Shown here piece by piece: positions 6,127 through 42,704 of a stretch of DNA of 64,000 nucleotides (position 1 is its first letter; every line of letters begins with the position of its first letter). The position numbers were made by a program, and so were the translations under genes. This stretch comes from Tychonema sp. LEGE 06208 (GTDB lineage: Bacteria > Cyanobacteriota > Cyanobacteriia > Cyanobacteriales > Microcoleaceae): contig NZ_JADEWT010000001.1 of NCBI RefSeq assembly GCF_015207505.1, positions 62,001-126,000 on the forward strand. Reading direction: 5' to 3'. The notes under the pieces are model-generated. The model worked only from the letters and a program-made list of their open reading frames with translations. It made no database searches and was not told where the DNA came from.

Positions 6127-6160
6127 GGGAGCATCTGGGGCTTTGTAAAAAGCATTTTTT
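6127..6160. mobile_element. solitary end of the GGGAGCATC miniature element
   Basis: These 34 bases are identical to the reverse complement of 42671-42704, one full end of the miniature inverted-repeat element at 42593-42704. Similarity stops abruptly at 6161 and no matching second end is found nearby, so this is a truncated copy. Confidence 0.75.
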
Positions 6161-17405: not shown

Positions 17406-19493
17406 ATGGTGAACCGTCTTGCTCAATCCCAAAGCCTTTACCTGCGGAAACACAGCGAAAATCCGATCGACTGGTGGCCCTGGTGCGACGAAGCCTTAGA
17501 AACGGCCCGGAGCGAAAATAAACCGATTTTCCTGTCAATTGGCTACTCTAGCTGCCATTGGTGCACGGTGATGGAAGGGGAAGCATTTTCCGATCGCGCG
17601 ATCGCCCAATACATGAATTCGCAGTTTATACCGATCAAAGTCGATCGCGAAGAACGCCCGGACATCGACAGCATATATATGCAAACCTTGCAAATGATGA
17701 CCGGTCAAGGTGGTTGGCCGCTCAACGTTTTTCTCACTCCCGACGAGCGAATTCCCTTCTACGGAGGCACTTATTTCCCCGTAGAAGCCCGCTACGGGAG
17801 ACCAGCATTTTTAGAAGTTTTGCAAGCAATCCGCCGTTTTTACGACACAGAAAAAGGCAAAGTAGAAGCTTTCAAAGCAGAGATTTTAGAGAACCTTCAA
17901 CAGTCGGCAGCACTGTCAGCAGGAACCGCAGAACTAAATCGCGAAATATTCCAAAAAGGCTGGGAACTCAACACCGGAATTATTGCCGGCAGCAACCCAG
18001 GGCCCAGTTTTCCCATGATGCCTTATGCTGAGCTAGCACTGCGGGGAACGCGCTTTAATTTTGATTCAAAATACGACAGCAAACAAGTCTGCACTCAGCG
18101 CGGATTAGACTTAGCATTGGGCGGCATTTACGACCACGTAGCCGGCGGATTTCACCGCTACACAGTTGATGCTACTTGGACTGTGCCGCACTTTGAAAAA
18201 ATGCTCTACGACAACGGTCAAATTGTTGAGTATTTAGCAAATTTGTGGAGCGCGGGAATCCAAGAACCGGCTTTTGAAAGTGCGATCGCGCGGACAGTAG
18301 AATGGTTGAAGCGAGAAATGACCGCAACCGCAGGCTATTTTTACGCCGCACAGGATGCCGACAGTTTTAACACTTCAGAGGAAGTTGAACCGGAAGAAGG
18401 AGCGTTTTATGTTTGGACTTACAGCGAACTAGAACAACTGTTAACTGATGAGGAATTGGTAGAAATTCAAGCACAGTTTACTGTGACTCGCGGCGGCAAT
18501 TTTGAAGGCAAAAATGTCTTGCAGCGCCACCAGCCGGGAAAACTCAGCGCCACGGTAGAAACGGCTTTAGCTAAACTTTTTGCTGTTCGCTACGGCGGCA
18601 ATCCCGATACTGTGAAAACCTTTCTCCCAGCCCGCAACAATCAAGAAGCTAAGAATGAAAGTTGGCCTGGTAGAATTCCGGCAGTTACTGACACGAAAAT
18701 GATTGCTGCTTGGAATAGTTTAATGATTTCGGGTTTGGCGCGGGCGGCGGCTGTTTTTGGGAATTTGGACTATCTGGAATTGGCGGTGAATGCTGCTAAT
18801 TTTATTTTAGACAATCAGTGGCAAAATGGGCGGTTTCAGCGGCTGAATTATGACGGACAATCGGCGGTGGCTGCACAGTCGGAAGATTATGCTTTGTTTG
18901 TGAAAGCTTTGTTGGATTTGCATCAAGCGAGTTTGAATTTAGGCAATGGGGAAGCAACACAGCAATTGCCTAATTCTCAGTTTTGGTTGGAGAAAGCTGT
19001 GCAGGTGCAAGAAGAGTTTGATGAGTTTTTGTGGAGCGTGGAATTGGGAGGGTATTACAATGCTGCTAAGGATGTGAGCGGAGATTTGTTGGTGCGGGAA
19101 CGCAGCTATATAGACAATGCAACTCCGGCGGCGAATGGAATTGCGATCGCCTCTTTGGTTCGCTTGGCCTTGCTGGGCCCGAATTTAGAATATCTCGATC
19201 GCGCCGAACAAGCTTTGCAAGCTTTTAGCAGTATTGTCCGAGATGCTCCCCAAGCTTGTCCGAGTCTGCTTTCGGCGATCGACTGGTATCAGCATTCTAC
19301 CCTGATTCGCACTTCGCCCGACCTGATTTCTGGGTTAATTTCGCAGTATTATCCGACTGCTGTTTGTCAGATTGAGGCGGATTTGCCTGAAGGTGCGATC
19401 GGGTTAGTTTGCGAGTGTTTGACTTGCAAAGAACCGGCAAAAACTCAAGAGATGCTGTTAGCAGAAATTCAGCAAAGTCAAAGGCGAGGATAA
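17406..19493 (+). CDS. YyaL/SSP411-type thioredoxin-domain protein (DUF255)
   Basis: 695 residues. I start at the ATG at 17406, since the TTG two codons earlier has no ribosome site. The N-terminal thioredoxin-like domain (1-165) has the family signature YSSCHWCTVME with C50-x-x-C53. The C-terminal part is an (alpha/alpha)6 barrel related to N-acylglucosamine 2-epimerase (DADSF, AWNSLMISGLARAA, ATPAANGIA). Conserved from bacteria to human SPATA20; the reaction is unknown. Monocistronic. Confidence 0.92.
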   Translation: MVNRLAQSQSLYLRKHSENPIDWWPWCDEALETARSENKPIFLSIGYSSCHWCTVMEGEAFSDRAIAQYMNSQFIPIKVDREERPDIDSIYMQTLQMMTGQGGWPLNVFLTPDERIPFYGGTYFPVEARYGRPAFLEVLQAIRRFYDTEKGKVEAFKAEILENLQQSAALSAGTAELNREIFQKGWELNTGIIAGSNPGPSFPMMPYAELALRGTRFNFDSKYDSKQVCTQRGLDLALGGIYDHVAGGFHRYTVDATWTVPHFEKMLYDNGQIVEYLANLWSAGIQEPAFESAIARTVEWLKREMTATAGYFYAAQDADSFNTSEEVEPEEGAFYVWTYSELEQLLTDEELVEIQAQFTVTRGGNFEGKNVLQRHQPGKLSATVETALAKLFAVRYGGNPDTVKTFLPARNNQEAKNESWPGRIPAVTDTKMIAAWNSLMISGLARAAAVFGNLDYLELAVNAANFILDNQWQNGRFQRLNYDGQSAVAAQSEDYALFVKALLDLHQASLNLGNGEATQQLPNSQFWLEKAVQVQEEFDEFLWSVELGGYYNAAKDVSGDLLVRERSYIDNATPAANGIAIASLVRLALLGPNLEYLDRAEQALQAFSSIVRDAPQACPSLLSAIDWYQHSTLIRTSPDLISGLISQYYPTAVCQIEADLPEGAIGLVCECLTCKEPAKTQEMLLAEIQQSQRRG

Positions 19494-19672: not shown

Positions 19673-19768
19673 AAGCCCTCAATTCATCAATCCCTGAATC
19701 TAAAATCTAAAATTTCAACTCCTTACCTTTTTGAGAAAGGCTATATTCCGTGAAAGAGGTATCTAAAA

Positions 19769-20123
19769 ATGAACTTCACCATCAAACTGCTTGATGTCGT
19801 TGCATTACTAGAAGATTTACCAGAACAGGGCTTATATCGGGGTCAAGTGGGAACAGTAATTGATGAATATGATGCAGAATTTGTTGAAGTTGAGTTTAGC
19901 GATTTGCAAGGTTGTACCTACGCGCTAGAAGCGGGAGCATCTCACTTTTCCAAAAAGCATTTTTTTACATTACAGTGCGAGTACCTCAAGAACTCGCGAG
20001 TACAATACGCGAGCTCTTGAGGTACTCGCACTACAAATGCAAAACTGAGATGCTCCCCTAGAAGCCCTTAGCAAGTCGCAGTTAATGATTTTGCATCACA
20101 GTCCGCTTGCTGAAACCAAATAG
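19769..20123 (+). pseudogene. DUF4926 gene interrupted by a miniature element
   Basis: The first 55 codons read KLLDVVALLEDLPEQGLYRG...FVEVEFSDLQGCTYALE, the recognisable DUF4926 fold. At codon 55 a 125-bp inverted-repeat element (19933-20057) enters, flanked by CTAGAAGC on both sides. The present frame runs through the element to a stop at 20020 and yields an 83-residue chimera with an unrelated tail. If the element and one 8-bp duplication (133 bp) are removed, the frame continues A-L-S-K-S-Q-L-M-I-L-H-H-S-P and stops at 20121-20123, giving a 73-residue protein with the normal family ending. An AGAGG motif precedes the ATG. Small toxin/antitoxin-associated roles have been proposed for such proteins; none is shown here. 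Confidence 0.85.
19933..20057. mobile_element. 125-bp miniature inverted-repeat element (MITE), intact
   Basis: Ends are a perfect 12-bp inverted repeat, GGGAGCATCTCA...TGAGATGCTCCC. The direct 8-bp flank CTAGAAGC at 19925-19932 and 20058-20065 is a target duplication. Inside, arms starting GTGCGAGTACCTC fold into a 24-bp stem (one mismatch) around AGTACAATA. No coding sequence of its own, so it must be moved by a transposase encoded elsewhere. Confidence 0.9.
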
Positions 20124-20331
20124 CTGAAAACTCAACCATTATTACAAAAACAAGTTTTAAATCCCTAATACTTCCATTTTTTACAAACAATACAGCGGTG
20201 GGCAATATCCGAACTTATACAGAATAAGTTATGGCCAACTCTACAATCTAAAATCTACAATCTAAAATTGTATAATCCCCGTGCAGCTAACAGTTACCCC
20301 TCAGCAGCTAAAAACATAAGCTTTTTTTATA

Positions 20332-42592: not shown

Positions 42593-42704
42593 GGGAGCAT
42601 CTGTGTTTTGTATTTATAGTGCTGTCTCGGATCGCGAGTACAATACGAGAGCGGGGACAGCACTATCATCAAAAAATGCTTTTTACAAAGCCCCAGATGC
42701 TCCC
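42593..42704. mobile_element. 112-bp miniature inverted-repeat element, second full copy
   Basis: Ends GGGAGCATCTG...CAGATGCTCCC. Flanks GTGTCCGT (42585-42592) and CTGTCCGT (42705-42712) match at 7 of 8 positions, an aged target duplication. The core CGCGAGTACAATACG (42633-42647) is identical to 19995-20009 in the first copy, but the stems (AGTGCTGTC / GACAGCACT) are different and still complementary. Confidence 0.88.

Follow-up and report, generated by a model that had tools for sequence, protein, structure and literature searches.

Nezha is a cyanobacterial MITE of Anabaena and Nostoc (Zhou et al., 2008, cited in PMC10969869). It is a short element that has terminal repeats and a high copy number, and its source is described as ISNpu3-like. 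In these general traits it resembles the element analyzed here, which is likewise short, bounded by terminal repeats and present in many copies. MITE insertions are known to inactivate cyanobacterial genes, as in the case of mcy in Anabaena (PMC10969869); there, too, a MITE lies within a coding sequence, the gene being a different one and the likeness being one of insertion type. With respect to insertion sequences (ISs), IS256 and ISKra4 have both been placed in the prokaryotic Mutator superfamily, which is characterized by repeats of 8 or 9 bp and by terminal repeats with a terminal C, and for which a circular intermediate has been argued; in one of its groups, ISMich2 (p-MULT 4), the transposase is encoded in two ORFs (PMC3942029; Guerillot et al., 2014). 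Of four papers found that mention both ISKra4 and MITEs, none has a title or abstract dealing with a link between them.

Here we analyze a 125-bp MITE located in a window of 64,000 nucleotides (the whole stretch of DNA that was studied, from Tychonema sp. LEGE 06208). It is inserted in a gene encoding a DUF4926 protein and very probably represents a non-autonomous member of the ISKra4 family (Mutator superfamily, probably ISMich2 group) that was moved in trans.

Results and Discussion

Insertion of the element in a DUF4926 gene

The features of the locus, along with the other family sequences present in the window, are listed in Table 1. A preliminary description of this DNA had proposed a MITE with exact 12-bp inverted ends, flanked by a perfect 8-bp duplication, and both features were confirmed in the sequence: the ends, GGGAGCATCTCA and TGAGATGCTCCC, are exact over 12 bp and match in 18 of the 20 outermost bases, and CTAGAAGC is found directly at both edges of the element. 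The MITE carries no transposase gene and no ORF of note of its own. As single-stranded DNA, the whole element folds with an energy of -44.5 kcal/mol (z -13.9). The matches to the Rfam families mir-3140 and cow-rumen-3 were discarded: their scores fall far short of the gathering thresholds, and they are due to nothing but the hairpin.

Table 1. Position of the MITE, the interrupted gene and other family sequences in the window
Feature	Position	Strand	Remarks
Solitary truncated family end, followed by typical subterminal sequence	6127..6138	+	
DUF4926 gene, 5' portion upstream of the MITE (54 codons plus 2 bases)	19769..19932	+	Pfam PF16277, 75.5 bits
Target duplication (8 bp), left copy, CTAGAAGC	19925..19932	.	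Single copy in relatives
MITE of class A (hairpin class), 125 bp	19933..20057	+	
Left terminal inverted repeat, GGGAGCATCTCA	19933..19944	+	
Inner hairpin core, AGTGCGAGTACC...GGTACTCGCACT	19974..20032	.	
Stop codon in the MITE, ending the interrupted 83-aa ORF	20018..20020	+	
Right terminal inverted repeat	20046..20057	-	
Right copy of CTAGAAGC	20058..20065	.	
DUF4926 gene, displaced 3' portion	20066..20120	+	Joined frame; gap-free junction match to 12 relatives
TAG, stop private to the studied genome	20121..20123	+	TGG (Trp) in 12/12 orthologues
Second family copy, 112 bp	42593..42704	-	Duplication with one mismatch (GTGTCCGT/CTGTCCGT)

The same description had interpreted the locus as the result of a transposition into the gene, with its disruption, and this is supported by the empty site found in relatives. 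Forty related genomes were searched with positions 19700-20200 of the window as query, and in one relative after another the left and right flanks adjoin, overlapping by the octamer of the duplication. BLAST of the joined flanks, followed by alignment, revealed a gap-free junction without the insert in 12 other Microcoleus genomes, all of which have a single octamer, identical to CTAGAAGC except for one changed base in three of them. The 12 sites can be considered orthologous because dxs is located downstream of the DUF4926 locus in all of them, and a 697-residue thioredoxin-domain gene is the upstream neighbour in the four relative loci where it was detected. The polarity of the insertion is given by the presence of the insert in the studied genome and its absence from the 12 relatives. 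A side observation concerns positions 19700-19746, a stretch of about 47 bp close to the DUF4926 gene on its upstream side: it is another dispersed repeat, found at many sites with around 82-96% identity in the same genome and in relatives.

The ORF starting at 19769 enters the MITE, where it stays open for 28 codons, and shows similarity to DUF4926 over 48 of the 57 Pfam positions. When the flanks are rejoined by excising the MITE together with one octamer (133 bp, i.e. 1 mod 3), an open frame is obtained that covers 56 of the 57 positions, with an increase in the score from 75.5 to 87.2 bits, bearing out the earlier proposal that this deletion would rejoin the frame. That proposal also took the stop at 20121, and thus 73 residues, as the ancestral state, and in this respect it has to be revised: since TGG occupies the position in all 12 relatives and the three orthologue ORFs that were translated (of the 12) have 88, 89 and 94 residues, a length of 73 residues is probably not that of the ancestral gene.

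The private TAG could also indicate that the gene was already decaying, through the change from TGG to TAG, and that the MITE landed in a pseudogene. We consider this sequence of events rather unlikely. There are four other DUF4926 genes in the studied genome, so that loss of this one may be tolerated; on the other side, the first 54 residues are open and keep 94-96% identity to the nearest orthologues (83-96% to most of them), and the nonsense change removes only a poorly conserved tail and could postdate the insertion. It is less probable still that the interrupted 83-aa product remains functional and that the insertion was a neutral C-terminal change: most of the Pfam positions are kept, as indicated above, but the SQLMILHH segment, which is conserved in relatives, is lost. 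We infer instead that the product of the interrupted gene is inactive.

A large family of MITEs with common ends

The 12-bp end of the element is abundant in the studied genome, with 67 forward and 71 reverse matches at a maximum of one mismatch (138 in total), compared with 4 and 5 (9 in total) for a control consisting of the same pattern read backwards. A further end match in the window, at 19239-19250, was rejected, being located inside a coding gene and within the control rate. Across the genus, family ends number in the hundreds, and when the genomes of species were scanned for GGGAGCATCTCANTTTTGCA, all the records among the matches listed corresponded to cyanobacteria.

All the fetched loci together yielded a set of 229 distinct elements, none longer than 170 bp; a few of them are chance or partial pairings. 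An exact duplication of 8 or 9 bp was present in 121 of the 229, with around 0.6 expected from shuffled flank pairs. Scanning of lengths between 6 and 11 bp gave 91 elements with 8 bp, 30 with 9 bp, and one each with 6 and 11 bp. Some flanks in which a ninth base seems merely to adjoin an 8-bp repeat are in fact 9-bp duplications.

Two main classes share these ends. In class A elements a GC-rich inner hairpin is flanked by AT-rich subterminal parts that differ in length, and class B elements contain a polypurine tandem repeat (of the GGAGNCAGGAG type); two class B copies of the studied genome, L061 and L064, are near-identical. In this same genome there are also elements of 36 bp (L172:102-137, contig C163) and 44 bp (L173:103-146, contig C188), scarcely more than two terminal repeats, around which the octamers match in 7 and 6 of 8 positions, respectively; these are possibly minimal mobile forms or deletion products.

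Source of the transposase

A full IS was sought by means of exact-end pairs in G012, a nearly closed, MITE-rich genome. No full IS was obtained from these pairs, which yielded only MITEs and one remnant, L133, a solitary end with an ISKra4-like N-terminus just inside, and it was this remnant that led to the idea of an ISKra4 source. A search of the genus with NF033572, the model for the ISKra4 transposase, then gave matches in 18 of 30 genomes. An end that differs from GGGAGCATCTCA by no more than two mismatches is present at each of the 30 ISKra4 loci fetched, and in 20 of them paired GGGAGCATCTCA-like ends are found 1.1-1.25 kb apart. The ISs of 1165-1193 bp carry an ISKra4 transposase (NF033572, up to E 4e-83), the matches being bounded by GGGAGCATC or GGGTGCATC ends, and an IS end such as GGGAGCATCTCAGTTATGCAATAAG coincides in 23 of 25 bases with the class A consensus, GGGAGCATCTCAGTTTTGCAAAAAG. 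Examples are L188 (1184 bp, duplication GTTTATCA), L182 (1174 bp, duplication GACTCGACC, of 9 bp) and L180 (1179 bp, ends GGGTGCATCTCA, duplication CGATCTAA); among 13 of these ISs, six duplications have 8 bp and three have 9 bp. The exact MITE end GGGAGCATCTCANTTTTGCA is also found beside ISKra4 coding sequence in Aliterella (L312) and in Chlorogloea sp. CCALA 695 (L322). The ends are therefore common to the MITE and to ISKra4-family ISs, and both show the signature of 8- or 9-bp duplications. Another IS candidate, of 1110 bp (L070), turned out to be a chance pairing around an apparent membrane-protein gene.

Within the ISKra4 family, the source of the MITE probably belongs to the ISMich2 group, an assignment based on the organization of the transposase, encoded in two overlapping ORFs at a run of six to nine T residues, which points to this group. 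ISs with MITE-type ends resemble it in this two-ORF transposase over a T run and in being found in cyanobacteria. The second ORF is in the -1 frame in L180, L181, L200, L201 and L203, and in the +1 frame in L182, L188 and L191, which are the three ISs with GGGAGCATCTCA ends. Like the MITE, ISKra4-family ISs of the ISMich2 group have terminal repeats ending in GGG/CCC and duplications of 8 or 9 bp. Unlike them, the MITE has 125 bp and no transposase; no IS matched it beyond the ends, the GC-rich hairpin core having no counterpart in the ISs examined.

As to the full-length IS with MITE ends that the preliminary description had suggested looking for, ISKra4 ISs of this kind exist in the genus, while the studied genome provided only fragments. 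No complete ISKra4 transposase was found in its assembly. The remains there are a degenerate piece (C203:31520-31864) and, where contig C203 ends, some 115 bp of an IS end that runs on into a different repeat. Either the assembly or the genome itself may lack a complete copy; the assembly breaks at repeats, so that such a copy could have been lost from it. Four contigs, C203, C152, C108 and C9, end in a common stretch of 127 bases for which no continuing contig was found, and this contig-end repeat is missing from the assembly.

In the mechanism we propose, an ISKra4 transposase encoded elsewhere would bind the GGGAGCATCTCA ends and move the MITE in trans. The element entered codon 55 of the DUF4926 gene, most likely at a staggered cut whose gap repair would leave CTAGAAGC twice; the gene now encodes a truncated DUF4926 protein that lacks the end of the domain and carries around 28 MITE-encoded residues. 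We infer that the copy at 19933-20057 was itself moved by an ISKra4 transposase.

ISL3 and IS256 elements have ends that begin with G and generate 8-bp duplications, and on this general basis the preliminary description had guessed that one of these families was the source. Mobilization of the MITE by an ISL3 or IS256 transposase now seems very improbable: paired MITE-type ends were present at none of 30 ISL3 loci, PF00872 was absent from all 30 genomes of the genus, which argues against IS256, a quarter of the exact duplications have 9 bp, and it is ISKra4 ISs that carry the ends. The guess of IS256 is nevertheless a near miss, because IS256 and ISKra4 both belong to the Mutator superfamily (PMC3942029). 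Finally, the 28 open codons might evoke an ancestral coding extension that the relatives have lost, in place of an insertion; this notion has a negligible probability, given that none of the 12 relatives carries the insert, their orthologues being continuous at the junction, and that sequence of the same type lies between direct repeats at many unrelated sites.

Hairpin modules of class A copies

The inner stem of class A elements is a palindrome built from a small set of interchangeable modules (GTCCCC, TTAAGA, TGTCCCC, TGTCGCG and others). In 59 copies a module could be recognised on each arm, and in 44 of these it was the same module on the two arms; over 10,000 shuffles the mean was 15.2 and the highest value 28. 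The size of this effect is approximate, the modules having been defined by eye and many of the copies from relatives having been picked by similarity to the window copy. Since kinship of the copies could cause such a match between arms, a fold test was done with 19 cores less than 85% alike. The mean folding energy of the native cores, calculated with RNA parameters, was -37.8 kcal/mol, and that obtained with arm-swapped halves across copies was -27.8 kcal/mol (sd 1.35, lowest value -32.0 of 500). There are also mosaic copies, in which the modules of one arm differ from those of the other. RNAalifold on a MAFFT alignment detected no covariation, the modules differing in length and falling out of register.

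As a tentative explanation, which we put forward as possible, both arms could change together, either because one arm is copied from the other (e.g. by template switching on the foldback) or because selection for mobility or for tolerance by the host favours a foldback; in this way the MITE would renew its interior and keep its ends. In the core of six class A copies (L232, L259, L264, L281, L299 and L348) there is AAGAGCGGACTGAAGTCCGTACTACGAACC or a variant of it, apparently a palindromic repeat in its own right that is nested within the MITE.

Concluding remarks

This analysis provides an insertion with known polarity and a clean empty site, and it links a large family of cyanobacterial MITEs with ISKra4, a branch of the Mutator superfamily. 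The mix of 8- and 9-bp duplications that is common to the MITE and the ISs makes the source directly testable, and the matching arms of the hairpin raise a further question, i.e. how foldback MITEs renew their interiors.
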